A stretch of DNA of 64,000 nt from positions 5,251,501-5,315,500 of the forward strand of contig NZ_CP046266.1 in assembly GCF_009720625.1 (NCBI RefSeq), written 5' to 3'. This stretch comes from Metabacillus sediminilitoris (GTDB lineage: Bacteria > Bacillota > Bacilli > Bacillales > Bacillaceae). Made by a program: the position numbers and the translations under genes. Each line of letters opens with the position of its first letter. Position 1 is the stretch's first letter. Of the stretch, positions 32,806 to 49,383 are shown piece by piece. The notes beneath the pieces were generated by a model that worked only from the letters and a program-made list of their open reading frames with translations, ran no database searches and was not told where the DNA came from.

Positions 32806-33708
32806 TCAAAGAACAATCATAAAAATGACTGGCAATGTCGCTAAACTTAGCGAGGTGCTAATAAGCGTCGCACTCGAAACGAATTCTGGTTCTGTATTAT
32901 ACTGCAGGGCGTACATTGTCGTATTCGCTGCTGTCGGCATCGCTGCCATAATAATCATGATTTGCTTGACCATTTCGTCAACAGGCAAAAACAATGTAAG
33001 CAGATAAGCGATTCCTGGTGAAATTGCTAATTTCGTTAGAAGAGAGAGAGAAACTTTTTCCCTCTCAAGGTTTTTCACCGATATTTTTGCGAGCTGCATG
33101 CCCAAGACAATCATAACGGTTGGAATGGCTGCATCCGCCACCATATTTACTGCCTCTGTAATGGAATTTCCCAATTTGACATGAAAGGCTTGAAGCACAA
33201 ACCCTAATGCTGCCCCATAAACCATAGGCATCCGCTGCACCGCCCGGATAGCAGAGCGCACCCCATCTCCTTCAGGGCTTCCTTTTGCAGCATAATAGAC
33301 ACCTACCGTACACATGACAAGCTGTTGGATCACCATTAAAACAATCGCATAATCGAGACCTACTGCTCCGAATAGCAATAGAACAACAGGGGTTCCGTAA
33401 TTTCCATTATTCATAAACGAGGAAGCCAGGATCATGCCGCATGTTTCCTTAACCGAGTATTTGCGTATAAATGCAATGATATAGACAACCGCAATTAAAC
33501 AAAAACAAAGGGCAAATGTATAAAGTGTCATATAAAAATAGGTCAGATCAAACTTCGTTGTATAAAAGGTTCGGAAGACTAAAACAGGTGACATTAAATA
33601 AAGAGCCATTGTCGATATCGTTTTCGTATCGAATCCAATTTTCTTTTGACCTATAAAGCCGAGTGCAAAGATGCCGAATATTGGAATAAGGATAAGGAAG
33701 AAATCCAC
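32806..33708 (-). CDS. AEC-family transporter (candidate sulfolactate exporter)
   Basis: A 300-residue membrane protein with about ten spans, of the auxin efflux carrier/malate permease family. It shows the two family repeats, with SFMNNGNYGTPVVLLLFG in the first half and AAMPTAANTTMYALQYN near the C terminus. Family members move organic anions. It is the last gene of an operon whose preceding gene is a sulfolactaldehyde-type dehydrogenase, so export of the end product sulfolactate is a sensible hypothesis; import or export of another acid cannot be excluded. Confidence 0.8.
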   Translation of the reverse strand: MDFFLILIPIFGIFALGFIGQKKIGFDTKTISTMALYLMSPVLVFRTFYTTKFDLTYFYMTLYTFALCFCLIAVVYIIAFIRKYSVKETCGMILASSFMNNGNYGTPVVLLLFGAVGLDYAIVLMVIQQLVMCTVGVYYAAKGSPEGDGVRSAIRAVQRMPMVYGAALGFVLQAFHVKLGNSITEAVNMVADAAIPTVMIVLGMQLAKISVKNLEREKVSLSLLTKLAISPGIAYLLTLFLPVDEMVKQIMIIMAAMPTAANTTMYALQYNTEPEFVSSATLISTSLSLATLPVIFMIVL

Positions 33709-33760
33709 TCGTTCACCTTCATTCCTAGAAAATAGATGTTTACCATTTCATTTTTCAAGA

Positions 33761-35194
33761 TTATAAGTTTAAGACAATAATACGTTCTTCCGTCATTTCC
33801 TCAATTGCATACTTCGGACCTTCCTTGCCATTGCCGCTGTTTTTCACTCCGCCATATGGCATATGATCTACTCGGTACGCAGAAGCATCATTGACAATCA
33901 GACCGCCAACCTCGATTTCTCGAGCTGCTTTCATGGCAAACTGCAAATTATTTGTGAAAAGGCCAGCCTGTAAGCCATAGTCAGAATCATTTACTTTTGC
34001 AATCACTTCATCGATTTCCTGATATGTCGCAACTGACACCACTGGACCAAATACTTCTTGGCGGCACACTTTCATATCGTCATGTACATTTGTAAGAATG
34101 GTAGGTTCATATAATGCACCATCGCGCTTACCGCCCAATGCGATAACAGCTCCTTGCTCAACTGCTTCACCTACCCAGCTTTCAACACGCTCTGCCTCAC
34201 GAAGGCGAATCATCGGCCCAATATCTGTTGCTTCACTTGATGGGTCACCTACTACAAGCTTTTCTGTGTTTTCTTTTAATAATTCGATAAATGATGCAAA
34301 AATCTCCTCTTGCACGTACACACGCTGTACAGATATACACACTTGACCAGCATTATTAAAGCTCTTTTGAGCAATCAAAGCTGCAGCTTGCTCTAGGTTT
34401 GCATCCTTGTGCACAATCGTTGCCGAGTTGTTGCCCAGTTCCAATGCCACCTTGCGCAATCCCGCTTTCGAGCGAATGTATTCTCCTACGCGAGGGCTTC
34501 CTGTAAATGTAAACATATTGACATCCTTGTTTTCTAGCAGCCATTCTCCAATTGTTGCACCCTCACCAGTCAAGACTTGAAGGCGGCCTTTTGGAAGACC
34601 TGCTTCTTCCAATAATTCTGCTAACATCAGGGCACAAATCGGTGTCACTTCTGCCGGCTTTAACACAACACTGTTCCCAGCCGCTAAAGCAGGACCAATT
34701 TTATGGCAAACGAGATTAACAGGTACATTGAATGGTGTAATGGCAGCAATGACTCCTACTGGTACGCGAACTGTAAAAGCCATGCGGTTCTCAGAGCCTT
34801 GCGCCGACTCAACTGGAATCCCTTCTCCATGAATGCGTTTCGCTTCTTCCGCTGAAATCACTAACGTTTGCGCAGCACGTTCAATTTCTCCGCGGGATTC
34901 GCGGATCGGCTTTCCAACCTCTACCGCAAGCACTTGGGCAAATTCGTCGCGGCGCTCAACTAATAACTGAGCTGCTTTCATTAATACCTCATAGCGGGCA
35001 TAAGGGGAGAATGGACTTTTTAATGCTTCCTTTGCGCCTTGTACAGCTGCATCGACATGCTCCTTTTCGGCTACTGAAATATGTGCAGCCACCTCTTGAG
35101 TATATTTATTCACGACCTCCATCATGTCAGCCGTTTGCTCCCACTTCCCATTAATATATAATCCATATTGTTTATCTGTTGTAATTGTTGACAT
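33761..35194 (-). CDS. sftD: NAD(P)-dependent aldehyde dehydrogenase, probable sulfolactaldehyde dehydrogenase
   Basis: A 477-residue ALDH-superfamily enzyme. Coenzyme and catalytic signatures: ITPFNVPVNLVCHKIGPALA, FTFTGSPRVGE, the general-base Glu in KVALELGNNSA and the nucleophilic Cys in NAGQVCISVQRV. The superfamily is certain; the substrate sulfolactaldehyde (oxidised to sulfolactate) is inferred from its place in a cluster with transaldolase, isomerase and sulfoquinovosidase, matching the Bacillus SFT pathway. The ATG at 35194 follows AGGAGTGGAGAAA; a GTG nine bases earlier is weaker. It lies 25 bases after the GntR gene. Confidence 0.85.
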   Translation of the reverse strand: MSTITTDKQYGLYINGKWEQTADMMEVVNKYTQEVAAHISVAEKEHVDAAVQGAKEALKSPFSPYARYEVLMKAAQLLVERRDEFAQVLAVEVGKPIRESRGEIERAAQTLVISAEEAKRIHGEGIPVESAQGSENRMAFTVRVPVGVIAAITPFNVPVNLVCHKIGPALAAGNSVVLKPAEVTPICALMLAELLEEAGLPKGRLQVLTGEGATIGEWLLENKDVNMFTFTGSPRVGEYIRSKAGLRKVALELGNNSATIVHKDANLEQAAALIAQKSFNNAGQVCISVQRVYVQEEIFASFIELLKENTEKLVVGDPSSEATDIGPMIRLREAERVESWVGEAVEQGAVIALGGKRDGALYEPTILTNVHDDMKVCRQEVFGPVVSVATYQEIDEVIAKVNDSDYGLQAGLFTNNLQFAMKAAREIEVGGLIVNDASAYRVDHMPYGGVKNSGNGKEGPKYAIEEMTEERIIVLNL

Positions 35195-35219
35195 TTTCTC
35201 CACTCCTATCCGTTTTTTC

Positions 35220-35951
35220 TTATCTCACAAGTTCAATAAAATATTGATAGTTATCACTGCAGAATTTTGTTGTTGTAAACTCAATTGGTTTGTTTTCCTG
35301 TCCAAAACTAAGCCTTTCCATTTGCAGCAGCGCCTGACCGCCTCTGATGCCGAGCAAATCAGCCTCAATTAGCGATGCATTAATCGCTTTGATTTTCTCA
35401 TTCGCGGTTTTTAGGACGATATTTTTTTCTTCCAATATGTCATAAAAATTTGCACCATTTAAATCCTGATGGAGCAGCATCCTTCCAATATGATACGGCC
35501 AGCATGTACGCTCAATGGCAACAGGTGTCTGATTTGCAAAACGCAGGCGTTCAATGACAACAACTTCTTCCTCTAAAGGTACTTGGAGCAAAGACTTTTC
35601 TTTGCGAAATTCTCGGCTTGTTTTAACAGATAACAATTTAGAGCTTGGGAAGATGCCATTCTCCAATGCTTCTTCCGCAAATCCCTTTAGCTTTCCTAAG
35701 CTTCCCACAAAGACTTGAGGCTTTACGATTGTCCCTTTCCCCTGTTTTTTCTCCAGAATCCCTTCCTGAACAAGAATCGAAACAGCCTGCCGTATCGTCG
35801 TTCGGCTGACATTGAATTCGCTCATCAATTCATTTTCTGTCGGAATCATTGAATAAGGTGCCCATTCCTTTTCTTGGATCCGTTTGATCATCGTGTCCTT
35901 TACTTGTAAATAGAGGGACGTGCTTTTGGAAGGCTCGAAACGACTTGCCAC
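35220..35951 (-). CDS. GntR/UTRA regulator of the sulfosugar cluster, paralogue 1
   Basis: A 243-residue HutC-type regulator. The winged HTH spans residues 10-78 (LMSEFNVSRTTIRQAVSILV, KKQGKGTIVK) and the UTRA domain follows (VVVIERLRFANQTPVAIERT, LLGIRGGQALLQMERLSFGQ). It is strikingly similar along its whole length to the regulator at 42866-43594, so the two arose by duplication and probably see related ligands and operators. It is encoded inside the operon 37350-32806. The ligand is probably a sulfosugar intermediate (inference). Confidence 0.87.
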   Translation of the reverse strand: MASRFEPSKSTSLYLQVKDTMIKRIQEKEWAPYSMIPTENELMSEFNVSRTTIRQAVSILVQEGILEKKQGKGTIVKPQVFVGSLGKLKGFAEEALENGIFPSSKLLSVKTSREFRKEKSLLQVPLEEEVVVIERLRFANQTPVAIERTCWPYHIGRMLLHQDLNGANFYDILEEKNIVLKTANEKIKAINASLIEADLLGIRGGQALLQMERLSFGQENKPIEFTTTKFCSDNYQYFIELVR

Positions 35952-36009
35952 TTATTCAACACTCCCTTCAGTCACATTCCAGTCCAAAGCAGGAGCAACA
36001 ACCGGTCTT

Positions 36010-37350
36010 TTATACAAACACATTCGTTTCCAGCTTAAGCAGACGCCCAAGTTCAATTAATTGTTTCGTTACGTCGCCATATACGAGGGCAAAGTGAGGC
36101 TCATAGCCTGCATTCATCAGCTCATAAAGTGTGCTTGTCACATCTGTTGTTAATTCCACTTCGACTGAGGTTCCACTAAAAGGCTGTTCGACATCAAGTG
36201 CATGTCCTTTCATAACGAGTAATCGGTACCCGTCTGGGGTATGGCTTACTCGGAATATAGTGACTTCCCCAGCCTTTAAGCCAAAATCCATCGCAAGCCC
36301 GATTTTTCGGTTAGGATGCACGCCAGCTGTCGCACCTGTAGCAGGATGGGCAAGCGAGTATGCCCCAGCTCCGCAATGCCAAAATACAACTGAATTTTTC
36401 CCTTCATCAACATGAACCAAGTCGCCTAAATATGGTGCACTTCCACCTGTTAACTCACGCAAAATATACATTGAAATCGAGCCATGTATATCGGATTCAC
36501 AGGAAGAAACCATTCCATCCTCCGTAAACTGCGAAAGAACCGAGCATGGTGCCGCGCCTAAATCATTGAAAAAGTCCGGCCAGCATCTCATCGCAATTGA
36601 CTTAATCTCTTCTTCCTTAATCTGTTTCTTAATGTATGTGGAGAACTGTGCGAACTTATGAACTGTCTCATCCTCGCGATTCAAGCCAATGACTTGTTGT
36701 TCAGCCCGATCAATTTCACCGATCCATTCTTCTTCAGGAAGTTCCACACACTTCTTAAACGCTTCTTGTAAATCCATCTTATGAAGCGTCACGCCGAGCG
36801 CATGTTTGAGTTCCTCTTCGTTTGCATCTGAGAAAAAGAATCCCGGAGGATAGTCGCCGACAACTCCTATTTTCATTTGTTGTAAAGATTTTAGAACACG
36901 CATGACATCAAATTTCTCAAGCAATTCCGTTTGCAGCTTCTCTTCATCAGGATTTCCAAATACGAATGCAAATGGGTGCTGATGATTGCGCAGAACATTG
37001 CTTGTGCTATTGCCGCCAGTCAATGAATTCAAGCGCAGGCGCCCGCCTACACTTGGCTCGCGTACAGACCAGACAATAACTGGTACTTTAAAATACTCCA
37101 GTGCCTTCACCATAAATTCACCATCTGCAAATGTGACACTCTGATATAAAACCGTATCAATTTCAGTTGTTGCTACTGATTGCAGAAATTGTTCAAGCTC
37201 CTCTACTGATGTAAGGATTTCATTTGGTGCAACAACACGATGACCACTTTGTTCAAGCCTACTCATGCTTTGACTGCGGTACATTTCTGCTGTTTCAAGA
37301 TCAAATGTTTTTCTTCCAATTGGAAGATATAAAATTGCTGTATTTGCCAT
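36010..37350 (-). CDS. L-fucose/arabinose isomerase-like protein
   Basis: A 446-residue protein resembling the FucI/AraA superfamily. The first ~170 residues form the Rossmann-like substrate domain (IDTVLYQSVTFADGEFMVKA; VPVIVWSVREPS), the middle has MRCWPDFFNDLGAAPCSVLS with the residues that usually approach the metal site, and a later section gives VVFWHCGAGAYSLAH. It is the first gene of the operon with the GntR, aldehyde dehydrogenase and AEC genes. A DUF4867 isomerase for sulfoquinovose is also present in this cluster, so this one may act on a different sugar or epimer. Substrate not determined. Confidence 0.78.
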   Translation of the reverse strand: MANTAILYLPIGRKTFDLETAEMYRSQSMSRLEQSGHRVVAPNEILTSVEELEQFLQSVATTEIDTVLYQSVTFADGEFMVKALEYFKVPVIVWSVREPSVGGRLRLNSLTGGNSTSNVLRNHQHPFAFVFGNPDEEKLQTELLEKFDVMRVLKSLQQMKIGVVGDYPPGFFFSDANEEELKHALGVTLHKMDLQEAFKKCVELPEEEWIGEIDRAEQQVIGLNREDETVHKFAQFSTYIKKQIKEEEIKSIAMRCWPDFFNDLGAAPCSVLSQFTEDGMVSSCESDIHGSISMYILRELTGGSAPYLGDLVHVDEGKNSVVFWHCGAGAYSLAHPATGATAGVHPNRKIGLAMDFGLKAGEVTIFRVSHTPDGYRLLVMKGHALDVEQPFSGTSVEVELTTDVTSTLYELMNAGYEPHFALVYGDVTKQLIELGRLLKLETNVFV

Positions 37351-37547: not shown

Positions 37548-37598
37548 AAAAGTAGGTATCTTTAATACTATAATATGAAAACGTCTACAGGATTTCAA
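37548..37598 (-). promoter_or_regulatory. CcpA-controlled promoter of the 37350-32806 operon
   Basis: Minus-strand -35 TTGAAA (37598-37593), 17-bp spacer containing cre TGTAGACGTTTTCA (37589-37576), -10 TATTAT (37575-37570), then an operator-like AAAGATACCTACTTTT (37563-37548). The same set in the same order occurs at 49383-49334 before the transaldolase gene, with small differences. CcpA bound in the spacer would block RNA polymerase directly; the downstream motif is a likely GntR site. Confidence 0.8.
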
Positions 37599-37847
37599 GT
37601 GTTTTTTTCATATTTTTTGCAAATACGTCTCCTGCTAGATCATTAAATAAGCATCACTACCATTAAGAGCCCTTTTCCAAACCTTCTTTCATCATGATAT
37701 GCCCTTTCATACAGGAAGATTGAAAGCATTCGTGAGCGGAAAATATTTTTCTGAATTTTTCGTTTACATTTATTTTTCAATATGCTACCTTAAGGTTGTA
37801 ACCTTTGTTTAATCATAGTGATGTAATTTATTTTTGGGAGGGACAAT
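37599..37847 (+). promoter_or_regulatory. upstream region of the Gfo/ABC operon
   Basis: This part of the divergent gap precedes the oxidoreductase gene. A weak promoter (TTTACA 37763-37768, 17-bp spacer, TACCTT) overlaps an AAGGTTGTAACCTT palindrome (37792-37805) that could be an operator. A strong ribosome site GGGAGGGACAAT precedes the ATG at 37848. No extra gene is seen. Confidence 0.45.
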
Positions 37848-39062
37848 ATGAATCTACTAGGTAAGAAAGTAAAAAACCGTTATATGTCACGTAATCCAAA
37901 ATTCGATTATTTGCCAGATCAAGACAGGTATTTCTCTTATCGAGAGCAGCCGTCTTACAAATTCAACATCATTGGTTGCGGCAATATTGGAAGAGAGCAC
38001 ATGAAGGTGACGATGATGGAAGAAAGAGCAACAATATACGGTGTTTATGATCAGAATCCGTCTAGTATTGAGGAAGCGGAAAGATTATTTTCGACTCTTT
38101 CAGACCATTCATTAGTTAAATATGATTCTTTACAGGCAGCTTGCCATGATCCCGAGGCAGATGGATTGATCATCTGCACACCCAATTACACCCATATTGA
38201 TGTGATACGAGAGGCTGTTAAATCGGGAAAACATATTCTATTAGAAAAGCCGATGGCCACGACATTACGAGACGCCTATGAAATCATGCAATTGGCTAAA
38301 GACTATGAATCTGTTTTTCAAATAGGTCTGCAATACCGTTATAAGGCCATATATGCCGAATCGATTCATGAAACCCTGGAAAGAAAAGCAATAGGTGACG
38401 TAAAAACAATTAGCATGACGGAACATCGAATTCCATTTTTAGATAAAGTCAATCAGTGGAATAAGTTCTCCAAGTATTCTGGAGGTACATTAGTCGAAAA
38501 GTGCTGCCATTACTTTGATTTAATGAATTTATTTGCACAGTCCAAACCCGTTCAAGTATATGCGAGCGGTAACATGGCCGTTAATTTTACTGATTTTACG
38601 TATAACAATGAGCAGGCAGATATTATCGACAATGCATTTGTTACCGTTATCTACGAAAATGATGTACGAGCAAATTTTAATTTATGTATGTTTTCACCAA
38701 CTTTTTATGAAGAGCTTGTCATTTGTGGAGATAAAGGCCGGTTAAAGGCTTCTGAAAATGAGGATTTTCTTTCAGCAAAACGCCCTAGAAATCATCTTGA
38801 GATTTTATGCGGGGAAGAGAAGCCGTCAAGGCTCATGACTCCTGCTTATCCTGATCATATCGAGACTAGCGGCCATGGCGGTGCCACTTATTATGAGCAT
38901 GTTTATTTCATTGATAATATCGAAAACAAACAGACGACGACTGCAACAGTAGAGGATGGATTATGGTCTGTCTTGGTTGGACTGGCAGCAGAACAATCGA
39001 TCAAGCTTGGGAAGGCTGTCATGATTGAAGAGATCCTAAAGGAGAGCCAAGTGACGATTTAA
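37848..39062 (+). CDS. Gfo/Idh/MocA-family protein, possible NAD+-dependent sulfoquinovosidase
   Basis: A 404-residue protein with an N-terminal NAD-binding Rossmann domain (FNIIGCGNIGREHMKV near residue 40, LIICTPNYTHIDVI, ILLEKPMATT with the conserved EKP lysine) and the C-terminal Gfo/Idh/MocA substrate domain (YSGGTLVEKCCHYFDLMNLF, with the conserved His two residues after the Cys pair). About 35 extra residues precede the Rossmann fold. Family members are sugar dehydrogenases, but a branch (GH188, SqgA) cleaves sulfoquinovosides by a transient NAD+ oxidation. Location in a sulfoquinovose cluster, first in an operon with a sugar ABC importer, makes that role plausible; it is not proven by sequence here. 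Confidence 0.8.
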   Translation: MNLLGKKVKNRYMSRNPKFDYLPDQDRYFSYREQPSYKFNIIGCGNIGREHMKVTMMEERATIYGVYDQNPSSIEEAERLFSTLSDHSLVKYDSLQAACHDPEADGLIICTPNYTHIDVIREAVKSGKHILLEKPMATTLRDAYEIMQLAKDYESVFQIGLQYRYKAIYAESIHETLERKAIGDVKTISMTEHRIPFLDKVNQWNKFSKYSGGTLVEKCCHYFDLMNLFAQSKPVQVYASGNMAVNFTDFTYNNEQADIIDNAFVTVIYENDVRANFNLCMFSPTFYEELVICGDKGRLKASENEDFLSAKRPRNHLEILCGEEKPSRLMTPAYPDHIETSGHGGATYYEHVYFIDNIENKQTTTATVEDGLWSVLVGLAAEQSIKLGKAVMIEEILKESQVTI

Positions 39063-39261: not shown

Positions 39262-40509
39262 TTGAAGAGAATATCGATTCTTTCCTTATCTTTTGTCTTG
39301 TTTCTAAGTATGGCACTTGTTGGATGTGCTTCTAAAGATTCAGCATCAAATTCAGAAGAAGGTGCAACAACGATTAATTTCCTGCATTGGCGCGGTGAGG
39401 ATACAGAGGTTTTTAACGGTCTTATCGAAAAGTTTGAACAGGAAAATCCAAGTATCAATGTTGAGATGAATGTTTTGCCTTCTGATTCTTATATTGCCAA
39501 TGCTTCTGCCACATTATTATCAGGAGAAGGAGCCGATGTTTTTGCAAGCTTCCCGGGAAGTCAATTTGAAGCATTACAGGAATCAGGCGCATATGTTGAT
39601 CTATCAAATGAAGCATTTATCGATCGCTTTTCTGAAAGCTTGCTAGGTGCGGGAGTTAAGGATGGGAAACAATTAGCTGTTCCTTACCAGCTTGTCTATA
39701 ATATTCCTGTCTATAACAAAGGGATTTTTGAGAAATTAGGACTTGAGCCGCCAACAGACTGGGAAGGCTTCCTAAAAGTAAGCGAAGTATTAAAAGAAAA
39801 TGGTTATGATCCAATTTTGTTTGCCGGAGATATTAGCCCAGGCCAATTTATTAATCCAATGGTCATGAACAATCAGCCATCTGATGACACGTTTGCAAAA
39901 TTAGAAAAGGGCGAAGAAAAATTAACAAATGAATGGTTTGTTAAAACATTGTCACAGATTCAAGAATTAAATGATAAGGGCTATTTTCAAAAAGACCCGC
40001 TTGGCACGAAAAAAGAAGGAGCAGCCGCATTATTTGCTCAGGAAAAAGGAGCGATCCTTGCACTCGGTTCTTATATGATGTCAACGGTAAAACAACAAAA
40101 TCCAGAAATTGAACAAGGACTGATTTCCCCGATTACGGTTCCTGAAGGGGAAATGAAATACGAAGGCATTCATACGTCAACCTTCATGCTTGGTGTTAAT
40201 GCTAAATCTGAACATCAGGAAGAGGCTTTGAAGTTCATTGAATTTCTAACACAACCTGACATTGCAGCAGAGTATGCGAATGGTACTGGTCAGATGCTTA
40301 CACTAAATGATATTCAATATGATTCTCCAGAATTAACTGAAACAGCAAAATGGCTTGAAAAGAAAACATTGTTCCAACCTCGTTATACGATTTCAAAGGA
40401 GCAAGTAAGCAAGGCGATTGAAATAGCAGTTCAGGATGTTCTATCGGGAGTGGAACCGAAAGAAGCTGCGAAAAAAGCACAAGAAGAGGTTAGTCGTGCA
40501 ATCAAATAA
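39262..40509 (+). CDS. sugar ABC transporter substrate-binding lipoprotein
   Basis: A 415-residue family-1 extracellular solute-binding protein. A lipoprotein signal (MKRISILSLSFVLFLSMALV then GC, acylated Cys at residue 22) anchors it outside the membrane. The mature part has FLHWRGEDTEVFNGLIEKFE and AVPYQLVYNIPVYNKGIFEK, typical of the carbohydrate uptake (CUT1) class. The start is TTG after AGAGGGGGTATTACAA. It overlaps the first permease by 14 bases. The substrate is probably sulfoquinovose or its glycoside, from the cluster context only. Confidence 0.87.
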   Translation: MKRISILSLSFVLFLSMALVGCASKDSASNSEEGATTINFLHWRGEDTEVFNGLIEKFEQENPSINVEMNVLPSDSYIANASATLLSGEGADVFASFPGSQFEALQESGAYVDLSNEAFIDRFSESLLGAGVKDGKQLAVPYQLVYNIPVYNKGIFEKLGLEPPTDWEGFLKVSEVLKENGYDPILFAGDISPGQFINPMVMNNQPSDDTFAKLEKGEEKLTNEWFVKTLSQIQELNDKGYFQKDPLGTKKEGAAALFAQEKGAILALGSYMMSTVKQQNPEIEQGLISPITVPEGEMKYEGIHTSTFMLGVNAKSEHQEEALKFIEFLTQPDIAAEYANGTGQMLTLNDIQYDSPELTETAKWLEKKTLFQPRYTISKEQVSKAIEIAVQDVLSGVEPKEAAKKAQEEVSRAIK

Positions 40510-41455
40510 TAAAGCAATCAAAGCAACAGGAGCGAAATTCGCTCCCTCCTTTTCTTCTAAACTTGAAAAGAGGAGAAAATTACAATGGAATTGGTCTTTG
40601 TTTTTCTTTATACTCCCGGGATTTTTAATTTATAGCATTTTCTTTGCAGGTCCTACAATATCTGCTCTTTATTTAAGTCTGACGGATTGGAATGGAGTTG
40701 CGAATGCCTACAATTTTGTTGGGCTTGCCAATTACAAAGAAATGCTGACTGATAGCCCAACTTTTATCCAGTCTTTGGGCAACAATTTAAAATTCACGCT
40801 AACGGTGCTCATTTGCCAAACGATTCTTAGTTTATTTTTTGCGATGCTTCTTGTCAAAAACACGAAAGTAAACGTCTTTTATCGAGCCCTTTACTTTTTC
40901 CCGACAATTGTAGCATCTGTTTCTATCGCATTTGTTTGGACATTTATGTATGATCCGAACATCGGTGTGATCAATAATCTGCTCAGTCAGCTTGGGTTGG
41001 AGAATATAGCTAAGTCCTGGCTCGGAGACCGCAACATCGCAATCTATAGCTTAGCTTTTGTACAATTTTGGGCACATACCGGCCAAATGCTGATCATTTT
41101 TATTGCAGGCTTACATGCGATTCCTAAAGAACTGTATGAAGCTGTTAGTATTGAGGGTGCCAGCAAGTGGCAAACGTTTCGCTATATTACATGGCCGCTT
41201 TTAGCACCATCCGCGACCATTGTCATCGCCTATACGACCATTCAAAGCTTTAAAGCCTTTGATTTAGTCATCGCAATGACTGGAGGCGGACCATCACATT
41301 CAACTGAAATCTTATCTACCTTCTTGTATCACGAAGCGTTTATTAACTTTCGATTTGGCTATGCATCAGCAGCCGCTGTCATCTTTATGCTGATCATTGC
41401 CATTGTGACAATTATTCAATTCAAAATGCTTAAATCGAATGAGGTTAACTACTAG
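40496..41455 (+). CDS. sugar ABC transporter permease (MalF-like)
   Basis: A 319-residue permease with six predicted spans and the CUT1 binding-protein-dependent transport domain; the EAA motif is EAVSIEGASKWQTFRYITWPLL. The GTG start at 40496 follows AAGAAGAGGTTAGTC and overlaps the binding-protein gene, implying coupling. The residues before the first span are hydrophilic and basic. Confidence 0.9.
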   Translation: MQSNNKAIKATGAKFAPSFSSKLEKRRKLQWNWSLFFFILPGFLIYSIFFAGPTISALYLSLTDWNGVANAYNFVGLANYKEMLTDSPTFIQSLGNNLKFTLTVLICQTILSLFFAMLLVKNTKVNVFYRALYFFPTIVASVSIAFVWTFMYDPNIGVINNLLSQLGLENIAKSWLGDRNIAIYSLAFVQFWAHTGQMLIIFIAGLHAIPKELYEAVSIEGASKWQTFRYITWPLLAPSATIVIAYTTIQSFKAFDLVIAMTGGGPSHSTEILSTFLYHEAFINFRFGYASAAAVIFMLIIAIVTIIQFKMLKSNEVNY

Positions 41456-41481: not shown

Positions 41482-42291
41482 TTGAGACAAATATCAAAGA
41501 ATATGACGCTATTCATCTATGCCGCGATTATTATATTGCCTTTTAGCATGGTGTTGTTTACAACCTTCAAAACAACGCCAGAGTTATACAAAAACCCGCT
41601 GGGTCTTCCAGAAAGCTGGTCATTTGTAAATTATAAAGAGTTATTTATGAAAGAGTCAATGACGACCTATTTTTTTAATAGCGTGACCGTAACACTTGTT
41701 AGTGTCGCTTGCATTTTACTGTTTGCAAGTCTTATCGCTTATTCGGTTATCAGAATGCCTAAAAAGCTTGGCTACCTCTTCTTTGGTTTTTTTGTTATCG
41801 GAATGATGGTGCCAACACAAGTAAATATGATCCCAATCTATCTATTAATTAATAAATTAGGATTATTGAATACCCTTCCAGGTGTGATTGTGGTGACGAT
41901 CGCATCGCTTATCCCAATTGCTGTGTTTATCTTAACAGGATTTATGAAAACATTACCTGGCGAACTAATTGAAGCAGCCAAAATTGATGGGGCCAATGAA
42001 TGGCAAACGTATTTAAGAATTGTGATGCCTTTATCCCTTCCATCGATTGCAACTGTTACCATTTTTGCATTCGTGATTGTCTGGAATGACCTGCTGCATC
42101 CTTTATTACTGTTAAAATCTGATGGTGTCAAAACATTGCCGATTGCCCTTCTAAGCTTCCAAGGACAATACTTAACAAATTATCCGATGATCTTTGCTGG
42201 CGTTATTATTGCATCGATTCCAATGATTTGTGCATATGTCTTCCTTCAGCGGTATTTTATTGCTGGAATGACGGCAGGCTCTATCAAATAA
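41482..42291 (+). CDS. sugar ABC transporter permease (MalG-like)
   Basis: A 269-residue permease with six spans and EAA motif EAAKIDGANEWQTYLRIVMP, the partner of the preceding permease. The start is TTG at 41482 after GAGAGGAGGGCGATCCC. No ATP-binding subunit is encoded in this operon or elsewhere in the window, so the importer presumably uses a shared MsmK/MsmX-type ATPase from another locus, as many Bacillus CUT1 systems do. Confidence 0.9.
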   Translation: MRQISKNMTLFIYAAIIILPFSMVLFTTFKTTPELYKNPLGLPESWSFVNYKELFMKESMTTYFFNSVTVTLVSVACILLFASLIAYSVIRMPKKLGYLFFGFFVIGMMVPTQVNMIPIYLLINKLGLLNTLPGVIVVTIASLIPIAVFILTGFMKTLPGELIEAAKIDGANEWQTYLRIVMPLSLPSIATVTIFAFVIVWNDLLHPLLLLKSDGVKTLPIALLSFQGQYLTNYPMIFAGVIIASIPMICAYVFLQRYFIAGMTAGSIK

Positions 42292-42302: not shown

Positions 42303-42336
42303 AGGCAAATCCACTTTGTGGGTTTGTCTTTTTTAT
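42303..42336 (+). terminator. terminator of the Gfo/ABC operon
   Basis: GCAAATCCAC pairs with GTGGGTTTGT around a TTT loop, followed by CTTTTTTATTT. It begins 12 bases after the second permease stop. Confidence 0.8.
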
Positions 42337-42343: not shown

Positions 42344-42812
42344 TGATTTCGAAACTTAGTTGCTATATAACAAGTTTTGGGAATGGTTGATTTCCAATAC
42401 AGGATATATCTTGAATTCTGCTGTTATATCTTTGGATTCCCGCTGATATATCTTGGATTTCGCTGATATATCTTGGATTCCCGCTGATATATCTCGATTT
42501 CCGCTGATATATCTCGATTTCCGCTGATATATCTCGATTTCGCTGATATATCTTGGATTCCGCTGATATATCTCGAATTCCGCTGATATATCTCCGATTT
42601 CGCTGATATATCTCCGATTTCGCTGATATATCTTGGATTCCGCTGATATATCAGCGATTCCGCTGTAGCTCGCTTTCTGTGGGGCGGGCGGTGTGCCTCC
42701 TCGGAGCTAACGCCTGAATAAGTCTCAGTGCCCCGCTGCTCCCACTGGAGTCTCGCATATCCGTTTCAATCAACCTAAATCGTTTTCCCATTTAAAAGCA
42801 ACAATCTTTTAA
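42344..42812. repeat. dispersed repeat B, copy 1, split by a tandem array
   Basis: The left part (42344-42395, GTTGCTATATAACAAG... GGTTGATTTCC) and the right part (42656-42812, GGGGCGGGCGGTGTGCCTCC ... GCTGCTCCC...GGAGTCTCGC...TTTCAATCAACC) match the copy at 58105-58450. The middle is occupied by the tandem array 42396-42660. The element lies between convergent genes and contains no reading frame of note. Confidence 0.75.
42396..42660. repeat. tandem array of ~20-21-bp units, about 13 copies
   Basis: Eleven close copies and two weaker ones of CGCTGATATATCTTGGATTC (variants CTCGATTTC, CTCCGATTT, CTCGAATTC). Each unit carries the 8-bp palindrome GATATATC. The flanking GATTTCCGCTG belongs to repeat B, and the unit includes that string, so the array seems to have grown from repeat B's own sequence. 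It is not a CRISPR array: there are no unique spacers. Confidence 0.9.
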
Positions 42813-42865: not shown

Positions 42866-43594
42866 TTATCTCGTAAGCTCAATATTATAATGGTATTTAT
42901 CACTGCGAAACTTGATTGTAGAAAATTCAATCGGTCTATCATCAAGTCCAAAGCTTAATCGTTCCGTCTCCAGCATTGCTTCCCCGCCACGTATTCCAAG
43001 TAAGTCAGCTTCAAATAAGGTCGCATTAATCGCCGAAATCTTCTCTTTTGCACGCTTCAAAATAATGTCATTGCTTTCTAAAATTTCGTAAAACTTCGCA
43101 CGATCTAAATCCTCATTAATAAACAGCTTTCCAATATGGGAAGGCCAGCAAGTGCGCTCAATCGCAATTGGGGTCTGGTCAGCAAAACGAATCCGTTCAA
43201 TCACTAAAACTTCTTCATCTTCCGGGATATTAAGCATTGATTTTTCGTGGTACAAATCATGTTTAAATTCGGCACGCAGTAACTTTGATTTAGGAGTCAG
43301 CCCTTTTTCAGTAACCTCTTCTGCAAAGCCCTTCAGCCTTCCATTTCCCGTTAGCTGCTGTGACTTTACAATCGTCCCCTTCCCTTGCCTTTTCTCTAAT
43401 AGCCCATCCTGAACAAGAATTGAAATAGCCTGTCGTAACGTTGTGCGACTTACATTAAATTCGTCCATCAATTCTTGTTCTGTAGGAATCAGCGTATTAG
43501 GAGCCCATACTTTTTCTTGAATCCGTTTAATAAGGATATCTTTTACTTGAAGATATAAAGAAATATTCTTGTTTGGATCAACCATACTTGCCAA
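42866..43594 (-). CDS. GntR/UTRA regulator of the sulfosugar cluster, paralogue 2
   Basis: A 242-residue HutC-type regulator, nearly co-linear with the protein at 35220-35951; compare NVSRTTLRQAISILVQDGLL with NVSRTTIRQAVSILVQEGIL in the recognition region. The UTRA domain is likewise similar (VLVIERIRFADQTPIAIERT). It is monocistronic, with a terminator after it and an 8+8-bp palindrome upstream that shares TGATTGTATC with the region before the symporter gene. Together with its paralogue it probably regulates the sulfoquinovose operons. Confidence 0.87.
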   Translation of the reverse strand: MASMVDPNKNISLYLQVKDILIKRIQEKVWAPNTLIPTEQELMDEFNVSRTTLRQAISILVQDGLLEKRQGKGTIVKSQQLTGNGRLKGFAEEVTEKGLTPKSKLLRAEFKHDLYHEKSMLNIPEDEEVLVIERIRFADQTPIAIERTCWPSHIGKLFINEDLDRAKFYEILESNDIILKRAKEKISAINATLFEADLLGIRGGEAMLETERLSFGLDDRPIEFSTIKFRSDKYHYNIELTR

Positions 43595-43646
43595 TTGTAA
43601 ATCTCCTTTCAGCTAAGATCTGAATGTTTAACAGTCATTTTTTTCC

Positions 43647-43856: not shown

Positions 43857-43875
43857 GAACGTATGAATGACCACA

Positions 43876-45915
43876 TTAGATGTTCGATAATGCTAAAAAC
43901 AACTCTTTCCACTCTGAGTTTTTACGGTAAAATACAGGTGGATATCCGATTGGAGCTTGCACAGTCACAGATCCGCCCTTGTATTCTTGGCCGCTCCAAA
44001 CATGGATCCACTCATCCTCAGGCAAGTAAACTTCCCATTCTGTTTGGCTTTCTTGATGAACTGGAGCCACCAGTAAATCCTTACCATATAAATACTGGTA
44101 TTGGATGTCGTATGCTTTTTCATCCTTTTCGTAATGCATAAATAATGGACGTTGAACCGGAATGCCGCGCTTTGCATTTTCTTTTACAATTGCTTTCGTA
44201 TAAGGAGCAAGCGTCACAAAGATGTTCGACATTCTTGCTAAATGCTCTAATGACTCCTCATCACCATCAAATTGGAAGCAATCATCTGGTCGATTTCCTT
44301 CATGTGTTCTCATCATTGGTGTGAAGGCGCCCATTTCTGACCATCTCATTAACAATTCCTTCGAGCGTTTATTGCCGTGCAGGCTTGTATATCCGCCAAT
44401 ATCACTGTGATGCAAGCCACATCCGATCATGCCCGATGATAATGCTGCAGGAATAACGGATGCTAGACCGTCATCCAGCGTCCAGTCCACACTTTGGTCA
44501 CCGCCCCAGAGGAGGGTGCAATATTTTTGTACACCTGTATATCCAGCACGCATGAAATAAACAACTTCACCTAATTTTCCAGCTTCACTCACTGCCTCGT
44601 AGTTGATTTTCGCCCACATCGTTGGCCATGCATTATGCATGATTAGTGCATCCACACCATTTTTAAGGACGACATCTGTTGGCAGGTATTCACCGAAGTC
44701 TGCCATCCAGCCATCAATACCAAAGTCAATCATGTTTTCTTTAATGACTCCTTTATACCAAACACATGCCTCTTCATTTGTAAAATCAACAACGCCGCAA
44801 TAAAACTCGCCAAAATCAACTAAATAGATGTCACCTTGCTCGTTTAATGCCAAGTACCCTTTTTCTTCCGCTTCCTTATATAAATAGCCTTCTATCGCTA
44901 CATATGGATTGATATAGCCTAAAAAGCGAATTCCGTTTTCTTTCCATTCTGGAATCTTTTTATCAAGCTCAGGGTATTCATTTTCATTCCATTTCCAGTT
45001 CCACATTAAGCGTTTACCAAAGGAAGTGATACGCTTGCCTTGCCAGTCCTGACACCATACGCCGGCAACCTTCATGCCTCTATCCAATGCTCGTGAAACC
45101 TTTTCCTCCACAACCTCTGTTCCGCCTTGAATGCCTAAAATCACGCCATTGTATACCCATTCTGGAAGCTCAGGCTGTCTGCCAAACAAGTTCGTAATCT
45201 TTTCGACGAGGTCAATATACGTTTCTGCTGTCTCAAATAAGACATATTTTGGAACTTCCCAAATTTGCAGCTCATGAAAATTTGGATTCCGGAAGTCAAA
45301 ATCAGCATAAGCCGTTGTCTCAACATGGCAATAATACTTTTTCGTTGATACAAAGGTCGGCTGCGGAAAGTTTGTATTGTAATAGTCGCCGCCAGCCTTA
45401 TCCTTCACATCGGCTTGCCATGTCACATAGGTGTTTTTATTTCTTCCTACCCCCGGCTCAGACGTCCATAGCGGGAAATTTTTCCCTCTCATATTAAAAT
45501 GAGAAAGCTGTTCACCACACCCATATACCTTTTCAGTTTGATCTGCTGCTACTCGCAGCCAGAAACGGTTGATCGCAGAATCAACTTGTGTATATTCAAC
45601 TTTTAAACGGCTATCTTCTTCTTTAATTGTCAGAAGAAGCACGGCCTGCCCGCCTTCAGACTTCGCAAGTTCAACCATATATTCATTGTTCTTTTCTTCA
45701 ACCCGCGCATATTTAAGCGGTGTGCGCTCCATCACATAATCCTTGATATCAAAGTTGCCGCGGTACATATCGATTGTTTCCTCACCTTGTCCAACAAATA
45801 GCATCGGTTGTTGGACCGTGTGACGAAGCAAAAGGACATGATTAAATGAGACTTCAAATCCATCTTCTAACGTTTTGACAGCTAGTCCTTTATTTACCTT
45901 CATTGTTTCTACCAT
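43876..45915 (-). CDS. sftG: GH31 sulfoquinovosidase
   Basis: A 679-residue GH31 enzyme that releases sulfoquinovose from sulfoquinovosyl glycerides. The family-diagnostic stretch CQDWQGKRITSFGKRLMWNW contains the Gln, Arg and Trp positions that bind the sulfonate in E. coli YihQ. The nucleophile is the Asp of GWMADFGEYLPTD and the acid/base the Asp of LLWGGDQSVDW. Together these separate it from ordinary alpha-glucosidases. The start at 45915 follows AGGAGAAGTGAAAGA. No signal peptide is present, so the glycoside must be imported first. It follows the symporter gene by 108 bases. Confidence 0.93.
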   Translation of the reverse strand: MVETMKVNKGLAVKTLEDGFEVSFNHVLLLRHTVQQPMLFVGQGEETIDMYRGNFDIKDYVMERTPLKYARVEEKNNEYMVELAKSEGGQAVLLLTIKEEDSRLKVEYTQVDSAINRFWLRVAADQTEKVYGCGEQLSHFNMRGKNFPLWTSEPGVGRNKNTYVTWQADVKDKAGGDYYNTNFPQPTFVSTKKYYCHVETTAYADFDFRNPNFHELQIWEVPKYVLFETAETYIDLVEKITNLFGRQPELPEWVYNGVILGIQGGTEVVEEKVSRALDRGMKVAGVWCQDWQGKRITSFGKRLMWNWKWNENEYPELDKKIPEWKENGIRFLGYINPYVAIEGYLYKEAEEKGYLALNEQGDIYLVDFGEFYCGVVDFTNEEACVWYKGVIKENMIDFGIDGWMADFGEYLPTDVVLKNGVDALIMHNAWPTMWAKINYEAVSEAGKLGEVVYFMRAGYTGVQKYCTLLWGGDQSVDWTLDDGLASVIPAALSSGMIGCGLHHSDIGGYTSLHGNKRSKELLMRWSEMGAFTPMMRTHEGNRPDDCFQFDGDEESLEHLARMSNIFVTLAPYTKAIVKENAKRGIPVQRPLFMHYEKDEKAYDIQYQYLYGKDLLVAPVHQESQTEWEVYLPEDEWIHVWSGQEYKGGSVTVQAPIGYPPVFYRKNSEWKELFLALSNI

Positions 45916-46023
45916 TCTTTCACTTCTCCTATCTGTGCTTTTTCCGTCATCCAACCTAATAGATAAAGGCTAAGCCCATTTATTCATCTATCTATCGGCC
46001 TTAAGAGTTAACTAAAAGACCCA

Positions 46024-47520
46024 TCAACTAACCGATTTATTTGTGATTCCACTCTGACTTGTTGATCCGCCCCAGAGTTTATCATATTTATAGCCTGTTA
46101 AGCTTTCACATACTTTTCTTGTTTCAGGTGTTACGTGCTCGGCCTTGCCGCCATTTTTCCTTCTCGCAATCTCTTCAAGCAGGATCTTATGATTTTTAGG
46201 ACTGATCTTGAATCCTAATGTAGAGAGGATACCTAGTAAAATTAACACGGGAGGCACGATCATAAATAACTTTTGCAAACCTTGTAATGTAGCAAGCGAT
46301 TGCTCAGCATTTGGTACATATCCAATCCCATTTAAGGCTAGTCCTACAAGGAAGATCGCCAATGCCTGAGAAGATTTTCGAATGAACGACATCAAGCCGG
46401 CATAAACCCCTTCTCTTCGCTTCATGGTGATCATTTCATCAACATCTGAGACGAATGGCAGAACGTTCCACGGAATCATGACTGCACCTGAATGTCCGCT
46501 TCCTAAGAAAAAGGCTGCAAGATAGATTAAAAAGATCGAACTGTCTTGTGTTAATAGACTGAATAACACGATACCAGCGCCCCAAATAAACATACTGAGA
46601 TTATAAGTCAGCTTGTTCCCTAGTTTAATCGCTATATAGGTTACTAACGGAATGAACAATACCTGTGTAATTTGGACAAAACTTAACGTATCTGCATAAA
46701 TACCTTCTCGAAGCATATAGTATGCGACAAAATAAAAGAACAAAGCATTGAATACATCCATGGCAACGTATGAGCCAAGATACATAGCCAAATAAACATT
46801 AAACGATTTATTTTTAAAAGCAGTTCCAAAATTCAAGAAAAGCTCTTTAAATTCTTGCAAGAATGGTTTCTTCACTCTTTTCTCAACCGTTCTTTCACTT
46901 TCCCAAGTCCCTTTATATACAAGGATCCATGGAATGGCAAATAATAGACCAAATACAATACCCATAACAAGGTACCCTTGTCCATCTGGGAAAGCGTCTA
47001 CAATTCTTTTAGGAAAGAACGCACCTAAGAAGGAAGCACCTTGAGAGAATGCCATTCGGACTCCCGTCATTTTCGATCTCGTATTATAATCTGTTGTCAT
47101 TTCAGCAGCTAACGTGTTGTAAGGAACCATAACCATTCCAAACGCGGTATTGAATAACAAATAAGCAAAAACAAAATACGCATACTTAAATGCATGAGTT
47201 CCCTCAATCGGTATCCACAGCATACTAAAACTTATCGCAACCGGAATAATCCCCAATAGGAAAAAGATCCGTCTTCTTCCGCGCTTTGTTGTAAGATTAT
47301 CGGAAATATACCCAATTGTCGGATCCAGCAAAGCATCCCAAATTTTCCCTAACGCTACTATGGTTCCTGCTTCAATAGGTGATAGTCCAACAACATCGGT
47401 CAGGAAAACCATGAATAATGTTCCGATGATAAAGAAGGACCCGCCTCCAAATAAATCCCCAATTCCATATGCAAACATGTTCCTTTTACGAACTTTCCTT
47501 AATCCTTGTGTGTCTCGCAT
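46024..47520 (-). CDS. GPH-family sulfoquinovose/glycoside symporter (YihO/YihP-like)
   Basis: A 498-residue, 12-span sugar:cation symporter of the glycoside-pentoside-hexuronide (GPH) family: FAYGIGDLFGGGSFFIIGTL, KIWDALLDPTIGYISDNLTT with the conserved D-x-x-x-G, TKRGRRRIFFLLG in the loop after span 2 and MVMVPYNTLAAEMT. E. coli YihO/YihP, in the sulfo-EMP operon, belong to the same family. Encoded immediately upstream of the sulfoquinovosidase, it most likely imports sulfoquinovose or sulfoquinovosyl-glycerol. Start ATG after AAGGGGAGAGTTGCT. Confidence 0.88.
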   Translation of the reverse strand: MRDTQGLRKVRKRNMFAYGIGDLFGGGSFFIIGTLFMVFLTDVVGLSPIEAGTIVALGKIWDALLDPTIGYISDNLTTKRGRRRIFFLLGIIPVAISFSMLWIPIEGTHAFKYAYFVFAYLLFNTAFGMVMVPYNTLAAEMTTDYNTRSKMTGVRMAFSQGASFLGAFFPKRIVDAFPDGQGYLVMGIVFGLLFAIPWILVYKGTWESERTVEKRVKKPFLQEFKELFLNFGTAFKNKSFNVYLAMYLGSYVAMDVFNALFFYFVAYYMLREGIYADTLSFVQITQVLFIPLVTYIAIKLGNKLTYNLSMFIWGAGIVLFSLLTQDSSIFLIYLAAFFLGSGHSGAVMIPWNVLPFVSDVDEMITMKRREGVYAGLMSFIRKSSQALAIFLVGLALNGIGYVPNAEQSLATLQGLQKLFMIVPPVLILLGILSTLGFKISPKNHKILLEEIARRKNGGKAEHVTPETRKVCESLTGYKYDKLWGGSTSQSGITNKSVS

Positions 47521-47546
47521 AGCAACTCTCCCCTTACTTTAATGTA

Positions 47547-47777: not shown

Positions 47778-47801
47778 TATATTTCACTACTGTGTTTAAC
47801 T

Positions 47802-48491
47802 TTAGAATTTTTCATTGTTGATGTGTAAAATTTGTACGTTTTCTCCCAATATTCCCGGATAAGCGCCTCGGTTGATTAGTACTTCCCTGTCTGGATGTGC
47901 AAGCAGCCATTTGTTTTTCATAAATAACAGCTCATCTTCCTCTGACTTTTTTTCGACCGCTTTCTCAAGGGGCTCATTCGTGCCTGCAGGTAAAATAACA
48001 ACGGCTTTAAAGCCTTGATCATCCACTTTACAAGGGGCAAAATGTAACGTTGTCGCATATAGCTCAACAGCTGTTCCTTTAGGAAAAAAGAATGCGTCTA
48101 CATTTTTAGCGTCATACTGATTGCTCTCAATATCTTGCACTCTTCCTAAAAGAAGGACAAGATCAGTCATCATAACATTAATTTCACTGCTTTTATGGTA
48201 CTCAAGACCATTTAGCGTACTATTTGGACCATTACAATACCCGATTTGAATAGGCATTCCACCATAAAAGTTTGCTTGGATCTCTTCTTTGACTTTTGTT
48301 TGCTCCATTTCAGTCACAGATGCTACATACTCATTACTATCTATTGGGATGATCGTTTGATCCATATAAGGCTTTAACTCTTCAAAATCGTAGGAATCAA
48401 CTAAATTTCCATATTGCTTAAACAAAGAATCCTCAACATGATAAATAGATATATGGCGGTTTATTTCTTTCAATAAATCATATTTAGACAA
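47802..48491 (-). CDS. sftI: DUF4867 sulfoquinovose isomerase
   Basis: A protein of about 229 residues of the DUF4867 family, a cupin-like isomerase. GYCNGPNSTLNGLEYHKSSE carries the probable metal ligands (His and Glu), with a second His in LHFAPCKVDD. Members of this family convert sulfoquinovose to 6-deoxy-6-sulfofructose in the Bacillus SFT pathway (also named SqvD). Start: the TTG at 48491 has AAGGG 11 bases upstream; the GTG at 48503 abuts that site and is less likely. It is downstream of the transaldolase gene, with a terminator-like hairpin between. Confidence 0.85.
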   Translation of the reverse strand: MSKYDLLKEINRHISIYHVEDSLFKQYGNLVDSYDFEELKPYMDQTIIPIDSNEYVASVTEMEQTKVKEEIQANFYGGMPIQIGYCNGPNSTLNGLEYHKSSEINVMMTDLVLLLGRVQDIESNQYDAKNVDAFFFPKGTAVELYATTLHFAPCKVDDQGFKAVVILPAGTNEPLEKAVEKKSEEDELLFMKNKWLLAHPDREVLINRGAYPGILGENVQILHINNEKF

Positions 48492-48524
48492 GTACCTGCA
48501 CACCCTTTTTCATTCTTCTTAAAA

Positions 48525-48570
48525 AAATGCCCCTCCAAGCTGGAGATTATTAATTCTAAGAGGGACATTT
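48525..48570 (-). terminator. intercistronic terminator/attenuator
   Basis: On the minus strand AAATGTCCCTC pairs with GAGGGGCATTT (one G-U pair), followed by seven T. It sits between the transaldolase stop and the isomerase start and would reduce transcription into the isomerase gene unless read through. Confidence 0.7.
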
Positions 48571-48587
48571 AGTATAACAGTCATGTT

Positions 48588-49268
48588 TTATTTAATAACT
48601 GGCACTTCTTTTGCTGTATTATCCCATGCATTGCGAAATACACCTAAACCATAATCTGTAAACGCATGATAAAAACTGTTTTTATAAACATCAAAGCCAC
48701 ATGTTACGATGTTTGCCCCTGCTTTGGCAGCATCGACAATTTGCTTGCCATTACGTAACGCAGCTACAATAATTTCTGTTTCATAACCGTAAGTTTTATA
48801 GATATCTACAATGTCTTTAATATATTGAGTTGTATCGTCCCCGCTATTTTCCTTCCAACCCACGAATGGGGAAACAAATTTTGCCCCGATTCTTGCTGGC
48901 TGCAATGCTTGTGAAGGTGAGAATACAAGAGTAACATTTGTAGGAATACCCTCTTGCTCAAACTCTTTTGCAGCAATTAAGCCAGGCTCTGTGCAAGGAA
49001 TTTTTATGACAAAGTTTGAAGACAGTGCTGCAATTTTCTTTCCTTCTTCCACCATCTCTTTAGCATTATCTAAATGTGGATTAATTTCAGCTGAAATTGG
49101 GAAATTCTCTACCCCTCTGAATTCACTTGCCATTTCATCAAGAACCGTTAAAAATGGTTTCCCGCTATTCATAATGTGACGCGGGTTTGTTGTTACCCCA
49201 TCAATTGCCCAATTTTCATAAGCGTAACGTATCTCCTCAAGAATTGCACTGTCTAAAAAATATTTCAT
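48588..49268 (-). CDS. sftT: 6-deoxy-6-sulfofructose transaldolase
   Basis: A 226-residue transaldolase of the short (TalC/FSA-like) type, with the Schiff-base lysine in FVIKIPCTEPG. It splits sulfofructose, keeping a dihydroxyacetone unit for transfer to an acceptor aldehyde and releasing 3-sulfolactaldehyde. The usual NPSL/NPTL motif of this family is NPRHI here, putting an extra Arg and His near the active site, which could help bind the sulfonate (inference). It is the first gene after a cre-containing promoter. The start ATG follows TAGGAGGAATAAGAC. Confidence 0.88.
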   Translation of the reverse strand: MKYFLDSAILEEIRYAYENWAIDGVTTNPRHIMNSGKPFLTVLDEMASEFRGVENFPISAEINPHLDNAKEMVEEGKKIAALSSNFVIKIPCTEPGLIAAKEFEQEGIPTNVTLVFSPSQALQPARIGAKFVSPFVGWKENSGDDTTQYIKDIVDIYKTYGYETEIIVAALRNGKQIVDAAKAGANIVTCGFDVYKNSFYHAFTDYGLGVFRNAWDNTAKEVPVIK

Positions 49269-49333
49269 GTCTTATTCCTCCTATTTTATCGTAATGTTTA
49301 TCAATAACATCATAACATAGTGATCTTTAACTA

Positions 49334-49383
49334 AAAGTAGGTACCTTTATTAATATAATATGTAAACGCCCACAAAATTTCAA
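49334..49383 (-). promoter_or_regulatory. CcpA-controlled promoter of the transaldolase operon
   Basis: Minus-strand -35 TTGAAA (49383-49378), 17-bp spacer with cre TGTGGGCGTTTACA (49374-49361), -10 TATTAT (49360-49355), then AAAGGTACCTACTTTT (49348-49333). It is the same design as at 37598-37548; the conserved part extends about 75 bases, more than expected by chance. Confidence 0.82.

Follow-up and report, generated by a model that had tools for sequence, protein, structure and literature searches.

A 64,000-nucleotide stretch of the Metabacillus sediminilitoris genome (assembly GCF_009720625.1, contig NZ_CP046266.1, positions 5,251,501 to 5,315,500; hereafter the window) carries what is, judged from its genes, an extended form of the published sulfofructose transaldolase (SFT) type of sulfoquinovose (SQ) cluster. 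The predicted additions to the SFT core are a GH188-type enzyme, a CUT1-family importer, a second GntR regulator and an extra glpK–glpD pair. New here is the predicted presence, in a single SFT cluster, of both sulfoquinovosidase families together with a second importer and glycerol genes. The extension probably serves the use of sulfoquinovosyl-glycerol (SQGro) and related SQ glycosides.

The locus was borne out as 13 uninterrupted frames between 32806 and 49268, each with a start and a stop codon (Table 1), in a host genome of 5.60 Mb on one contig. The first-pass annotation had described an SFT-type SQ cluster with extra parts, and all the genes it named were present, with family matches far above chance. 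One minus-strand unit includes, in order, sftT, sftX (DUF4867), a GPH symporter gene, the GH31 gene and GntR1, and the other sftI, GntR2, an aldehyde dehydrogenase gene and an AEC carrier gene. On the plus strand between these units lie a gene of the Gfo/Idh/MocA fold, the CUT1 binding-protein gene and two permease genes. The glpK–glpD pair (29244–32452, minus strand) comes next beyond the AEC gene, outside the boundaries drawn in the first-pass annotation, and was missed there.

SftT shares 203 of 226 residues with the solved enzyme of Bacillus megaterium (8bc3) and keeps Lys89, whose role in SftT has been described (PMC12890257). PF02952 as the family of the SQ isomerase is in line with PMC9594981, and SftI is the name used in PMC11659671. 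The first-pass annotation had given the isomerase role to the DUF4867 protein; this was rejected, the isomerase being the PF02952 protein at 36010–37350 (NF048012) and no DUF4867 activity having been found to date according to PMC11968277. The DUF4867 protein has been proposed to be a mutarotase or a ring-opening enzyme (PMC9594981, PMC11968277), and in the SftX of the window E101, H103, E107 and H154 have the same spacing as the reported metal ligands of the B. megaterium protein (Glu-x-His-x3-Glu and a later His). The GH31 protein scored 945 bits against Escherichia coli YihQ (5aed) and 1370 bits against 8r56. The sulfonate-binding signature attributed to it earlier was upheld, as in a hand-counted alignment with 5aed the counterparts of Gln288, Arg301, Trp304, Asp405 and Asp472 were all kept; we take the first three to bind the sulfonate and Asp472 to be the partner of the catalytic Asp405. 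For the aldehyde dehydrogenase, no NCBIfam cut-off was reached among the matches listed and no solved relative was found at E ≤ 1e-120.

Two further SFT loci, G221 and L047, were taken as the Priestia megaterium group from their SftT, that of G221 being identical to the B. megaterium chain at 224 of 226 positions. In G221 the AEC carrier, aldehyde dehydrogenase (82% identical to that of the window), one GntR, SftI, GH31, SftX and SftT form one run, with 64–90% identity to the window proteins. Because the AEC carrier, SftI and one GntR are all present in this cluster, they belong to the core and are not additions, as they had been counted in the first-pass annotation (SftI as a fucose-isomerase-like protein); the CUT1 importer, the Gfo/Idh/MocA protein and the second GntR remain as additions. 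The Priestia group cluster also has a GPH symporter, but a different protein (31% identity to that of the window). Within its 19 kb stretch it lacks GH188, the CUT1 importer, the second GntR and glpKD, whereas the window has all of these.

By its residues and nearest structures, the Gfo/Idh/MocA protein is a predicted GH188-type sulfoquinovosidase. The fold family had been recognised correctly in the first-pass annotation, its identity as a second sulfoquinovosidase had not. The best structure matches were 8qc2 (E 1e-61) and 8qc3 (6e-59), both GH188, and 8zn9 (1e-59), a putative oxidoreductase, the next-best structure (6e-19) being about 40 orders of magnitude behind. Identity to the 8qc2 chain was 129 of 342 aligned residues (37.7%). 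8QC2 and 8QC3 are structures of SqgA, for which the active-site residues have been listed (PMC10755693). Lys107, Tyr136, Arg166, Leu170, Lys172, Glu189, His193 and His321 (ArSqgA numbers), the two catalytic histidines and the sulfonate triad among them, were all matched in the window protein. These eight positions were invariant also across an alignment of 93 proteins with 50% identity or more, among which some species are present twice, Leu170 alone deviating (92 of 93). A glutamate two residues ahead of Arg166 was invariant too and seems to be Glu163 of the paper, a ninth position. The relative in Salibacterium qingdaonense (L105), a species whose protein is named a GH188 member in the Figure 5 legend of PMC10755693, was 62% identical. 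GH188-type genes 59–62% identical to that of the window were found also in metagenome-assembled genomes of Heimdallarchaeota and Lokiarchaeota (L088, L126).

The GH31 and GH188 families are unrelated, and their two genes are 4.8 kb apart in the window. The two sulfoquinovosidases are reported to be complementary in the paper describing GH188, the representative GH188 clusters of which are said to be without a GH31 sulfoquinovosidase (PMC10755693); the enzyme of the window resembles those of that paper in sequence family and in catalytic and sulfonate residues, whereas its cluster has both families. In an evenly drawn sample of 397 genomes of the order, the host included, SftI was present in 50. 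These 50 included 15 with GH188 (E limit 1e-40), 41 with GH31 (1e-100) and 15 with SftT (1e-60); seven had both sulfoquinovosidases, eight GH188 alone, 34 GH31 alone and one neither. Both enzymes were clustered in three genomes, those of the window, Bacillus taeanensis (G087) and B. solitudinis (G375), while in G280, G343 and G363 they were 115–159 kb apart and in G209 on separate contigs. Only the window combined both sulfoquinovosidases with SftT. A survey of GH188 loci, covering the best 80 of 330 with at most 10 kb on each side (41 with full flanks), found GH31 in five, two of them among the 41: the same B. taeanensis and B. solitudinis loci, Neobacillus mesonae, a Clostridiaceae metagenome-assembled genome and Candidatus Scatomonas. 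YihQ and SqgA have been reported together in Neosphaerochaeta fermentans and, among 5578 public rumen genomes, in two (PMC13219744). In the SFT loci of Peribacillus and G306 (L053, L079, L081; L075 partial) the stretch held GH188 but lacked GH31, a pattern that looks like the substitution of one sulfoquinovosidase for the other.

No signal sequence was evident in GH31 or GH188, and the N-terminus of the binding protein was that of a lipoprotein (both read by eye); therefore the glycosides would have to enter whole. The CUT1 importer is the candidate for this, its ligand being, we infer, SQ glycosides. No ATPase gene for it was found within the locus, and the MalK-type domain PF17912 was present at one place in the genome, 774086. 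The true start of permease 1 is probably downstream of that given in Table 1, because its longest frame shares 74 bp with the binding-protein gene.

Transporters were surveyed in 26 SftI loci of other genomes (18 of the order set, seven of the genus and Neobacillus mesonae L071). Every one had at least one of an SSS-type symporter (14 loci), a GPH symporter (3) and the CUT1 family (11). The importer occurred without either symporter kind in 9 of the 26 (L057–L062, L064, L071 and L172), and can therefore stand as the only SQ carrier candidate in a locus. Two transporter kinds were found only in G087 and G375 (importer and SSS), and the window has importer and GPH; these three are exactly the order-set clusters with both sulfoquinovosidases. 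N. mesonae L071 has both sulfoquinovosidases and the importer alone. GH188, a GntR and the importer were also found together with no SftI in the stretch in two Pseudalkalibacillus and one Bacillus sp. (L069, L142, L070), with importer proteins 79–83% identical to those of the window.

The glycerol genes of the cluster are extra copies, the genome having three glpK above the model cut-off and two glpD, and the pair at 1626592–1629946 is likely the housekeeping glpK–glpD. The cluster copies would serve the SQ pathway. Among the 80 GH188 loci, glpK (≥55% identity) was present in ten, and in 5 of the 41 with full flanks. The ten were N. mesonae L071, two Oceanobacillus and seven of the nine Meiothermus/Calidithermus loci; in six of the latter (L120, L133, L135, L139, L143, L146) glpK was head to head with GH188, with a gap of about 50–70 bp in L120 and L133. 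Recruitment of glpK looks repeated, because the window copy is closer to its own paralogue (90%) than to the glpK of L071 (74%). A leader common to the glpK of the cluster and that at 1626592 was rejected, the matches being short and the longest of them 14 bases. The idea of a glycerol arm is not new, since the SFT cluster of Eubacterium rectale also has a glycerol kinase (PMC11968277). In a limited literature search, no report was found of glpK with glpD adjoining an SFT cluster.

The probable promoters of sftT and sftI are alike, and each is followed at equal distance by the operator-like box AAAGRTACCTACTTT. The first-pass annotation closed the locus at 49383, where the −35 hexamer of the probable sftT promoter starts. 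With at most two mismatches the box had only these two matches in the window, against 0.27 expected, and two were reached in 3 of 100 shuffles. Among the eight genus loci with SftI, it was found upstream of sftT in seven (≤3 mismatches) and upstream of sftI in seven (≤1 mismatch); both were absent in L172 of the genus and in L047. The GntR pair probably binds this shared box, and the position of the genes suggests a repressor. A CcpA cre-like sequence was seen by eye between the −35 and −10 hexamers of both promoters (37570–37598, 49355–49383), compared with what we take to be the CcpA cre consensus; if the spacers hold cre sites, the SFT promoters would be under carbon catabolite repression. 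A pattern fitted post hoc, AARRTNNNNACNTT, matched the window at 16 places where 6.0 would be expected, and 11 of these lie away from the promoters of the cluster. GH188 was left without an assigned promoter: there was a weak 9-of-12 match at 37720–37749, and another candidate was dropped for its spacer of 12 bases. A perfect palindrome, AAGGTTGTAACCTT, lies 42 bp ahead of the GH188 start and is a possible operator. The stretch scanned for terminator-like stems had 21 of them, 14.2 being expected.

The history of the extension was followed in the genus group of 21 genomes, the host included, of which eight had SftI; GH188 (E ≤ 1e-40) was found in 0 of the 20 others. The sister genome G011 (L166) has kept the nine other genes in the same order at 85–97% identity (SftT 97, SftX 85, GPH symporter 94, GH31 94, GntR1 97, SftI 96, GntR2 88, aldehyde dehydrogenase 97 and AEC carrier 96%) without GH188, importer or glpKD as intact genes. 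At the module site, however, 58 bp of the binding-protein gene survive in L166 (81% with a gap, 52.7 bits), colinear with a kept stem after permease 2 (92%, 54.5 bits), and after AEC the end of glpD is left as two pieces (76 and 75%, 68.0 and 59.9 bits), the best of 200 dinucleotide shuffles reaching 31.0 bits for the module and 34.6 for glp. L171 retains 76 bp from the beginning of the GH188 gene (49.1 bits, against 34.6 for the best shuffle). No module or glp scraps were found in L167–L170, for which loss is not demonstrated. Because of the scraps in L166 and L171 the extension appears to have been inherited and then lost, the simplest account being an ancestor with the module and glpKD and later losses. 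A recent insertion of GH188 and the importer, as read from the compact intergenic region of the sister, was overturned by the same remnants. The glpD scrap of L166 may derive from the cluster copy (68.0 bits) or from the other copy (67.1). GntR1 as a part of the module, as in the GH188–GntR–importer loci L054 and L055, was rejected, L166 having GntR1 without the module.

A similar gene set outside the genus was that of Neobacillus mesonae MER TA 107 (L071), which has the order glpD–glpK–AEC–aldehyde dehydrogenase–GntR–SftI–SftT, then GH188 and the importer reversed, and GntR–GH31–SftX. Unlike in the window, sftT adjoins sftI and no GPH symporter was seen in the locus; identities were 60–83%. 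Neosphaerochaeta fermentans has YihQ and SqgA like the window, but a transketolase pathway, and is anaerobic (PMC13219744). The Eubacterium rectale SFT cluster shares GH31, SftX and a glycerol kinase with the window (PMC11968277), but is that of an anaerobe with a branch forming 2,3-dihydroxypropane-1-sulfonate (PMC11659671); the term GH188 is absent from PMC11968277.

In the favoured account free SQ would enter through the GPH symporter and SQ glycosides through the CUT1 importer, driven by a MalK/MsmX-type ATPase encoded elsewhere. In the cytoplasm GH31 would cleave alpha-glycosides by ordinary hydrolysis, and GH188 alpha- or beta-glycosides through a transient NAD+-dependent oxidation at C3. 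SQ would then be converted to sulfolactate by SftI, SftT and the aldehyde dehydrogenase, and the sulfolactate exported by the AEC carrier, with fructose-6-phosphate feeding glycolysis and the freed glycerol converted by GlpK and GlpD to dihydroxyacetone phosphate. Substrates, transport direction and regulation are here read from the observed identities, active-site residues, boxes, stems, neighbourhoods and remnants. Several points weigh against this account. The evidence for the ligand of the importer is weak, SmoF being a distant match of the binding protein and other sugar-binding proteins scoring better. The GH188-type protein is just 37.7% identical to the solved enzyme, the palindrome before its gene had no counterpart ahead of GH188 in 11 other loci, and the promoter scan overall showed no excess (52 sites against 52.6 expected). 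The glycerol genes lie behind a 19-pair terminator-like stem and lack the sftT/sftI box upstream, glpK was near GH188 in 0 of 12 other GH188 loci mapped, and since seven of the ten GH188–glpK cases are one lineage, there are perhaps three or four independent ones. Furthermore, GH31 and GH188 avoid each other among the 50 SftI genomes, only seven having both (Fisher p-value 9e-5, relatedness ignored), and therefore redundancy rather than synergy is possible.

Taken furthest, the locus could be a self-contained SQGro unit, in which two sulfoquinovosidases of unrelated mechanism would share the work, GH31 taking the alpha-glycosides and GH188 beta- or other glycosides delivered by its own importer, and dedicated enzymes would take the glycerol, with GH188, importer and glpKD gained and lost together as a module on a free-SQ pathway; we regard this as possible but rather doubtful. 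It appears unlikely that this is a plain SFT cluster and a redundant passenger, in which GH188 and the importer would remain from another SQ route that the genus is losing, glpKD would be an unrelated duplicate, and only GH31 and the symporter would be of importance. The absence of GH188 from all 20 other genus genomes, its decay seen in the remnants, the tendency of the two sulfoquinovosidases toward mutual exclusion and the missing box of glpKD would fit such a passenger, but the extension genes are all uninterrupted with every tested GH188 active-site position kept, a similar gene set recurs in N. mesonae L071, and in G087 and G375, too, two sulfoquinovosidases go with two kinds of importer. 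Of the Gfo/Idh/MocA proteins characterised so far, most act as sugar or inositol dehydrogenases, and many dehydrogenase names were among the structure matches. The extra parts could serve further sulfosugars such as sulfofucose, which is reported to be catabolised by a Paracoccus (PMC12421959), with the GH188-like protein a sugar dehydrogenase. However, the 40 orders of magnitude in E-value by which the nearest solved relatives, GH188 included, lead other structures, the kept sulfonate triad and catalytic histidines, and the lack of a second isomerase or aldolase frame in the locus make this very improbable. Where the first-pass annotation had suggested several sulfosugar substrates, the predicted GH188-type enzyme, the CUT1 importer and glpKD point to several glycosides of one sulfosugar, SQGro first.

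Free SQ is minor in nature and most is bound in glycosides (PMC10755693); therefore the way in, through import, glycosidase and glycerol fate, sets who can use SQ. With both known sulfoquinovosidase families in one cluster, M. sediminilitoris is a strain suited to the question why both are retained in a single cell, and natural comparisons are at hand in relatives that have the core only or scraps. The isomerase assignment of the locus is corrected to SftI from DUF4867.

Table 1. Predicted genes and regulatory features of the extended SFT locus, in window coordinates.
Feature	Position	Strand	Basis
glpD, extra glycerol-3-phosphate dehydrogenase copy	29244..30923	−	84% identical to other copy
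glpK, extra glycerol kinase copy	30962..32452	−	TIGR01311 749 bits; 90% identical to copy at 1626592
Terminator-like stem after AEC	32744-32703	−	stem scan
AEC-family carrier, putative sulfolactate exporter	32806..33708	−	PF03547 94 bits; 80% identical to G221 protein
Aldehyde dehydrogenase, putative sulfolactaldehyde dehydrogenase	33761..35203	−	PF00171 E 1e-159
GntR2 regulator	35220..35951	−	65% identical to GntR1
sftI/sqvD, sulfoquinovose isomerase, core enzyme	36010..37350	−	NF048012 822 bits (cut-off 700)
Operator-like AAAGATACCTACTTT after sftI promoter	37563-37549	−	sequence scan
Probable sftI promoter TTGAAA-17-TATTAT	37598-37570	−	sequence scan
Palindrome (AAGGTT-GT-AACCTT, perfect), possible operator	37792..37805	+	42 bp ahead of GH188 start
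GH188-type NAD+-dependent sulfoquinovosidase (sqgA-like), Gfo/Idh/MocA fold	37848..39062	+	structure-chain matches and active-site residues
CUT1 substrate-binding lipoprotein	39262..40509	+	PF01547 115 bits; distant match to SmoF 7nbz E 9e-10
CUT1 permease 1, longest frame	40436..41455	+	PF00528
CUT1 permease 2	41482..42291	+	PF00528
Terminator-like stem after permease 2	42303-42329	+	stem scan
Terminator-like stem after GntR1	42853-42832	−	stem scan
GntR1 regulator, last gene of sftT unit	42866..43594	−	PF00392+PF07702
sftG/yihQ, GH31 alpha-sulfoquinovosidase	43876..45954	−	NF007746 1076 bits
GPH-family symporter, probable SQ importer	46024..47520	−	PF13347 E 6e-71
sftX/sqvB, DUF4867 cupin	47802..48503	−	PF16161 277 bits; 342 bits to 9gyy
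sftT, sulfofructose transaldolase	48588..49268	−	phmmer E 6e-137 to 8bc3 (BmSF-TAL)
Operator-like AAAGGTACCTACTTT after sftT promoter	49348-49334	−	sequence scan
Probable sftT promoter TTGAAA-17-TATTAT	49383-49355	−	sequence scan

No Rfam elements reached the gathering score in 27000–51000. Downstream of glpD there is an IS110-family transposase frame (27871–28833), the match of which begins at model position 87 of 343; the N-terminal part may be absent or encoded in another frame. In the gap between permease 2 and GntR1, at 42403–42665, a unit of 20 bp, GATATATCTCGAATTCCGCT, recurs about 13 times as an array. Next to it, at 42668–42811, is a dispersed repeat of about 150 bp, which was present also in L166 (5310–5466) and L169 (3117–3268), lying elsewhere in these two relatives and in intergenic sequence.

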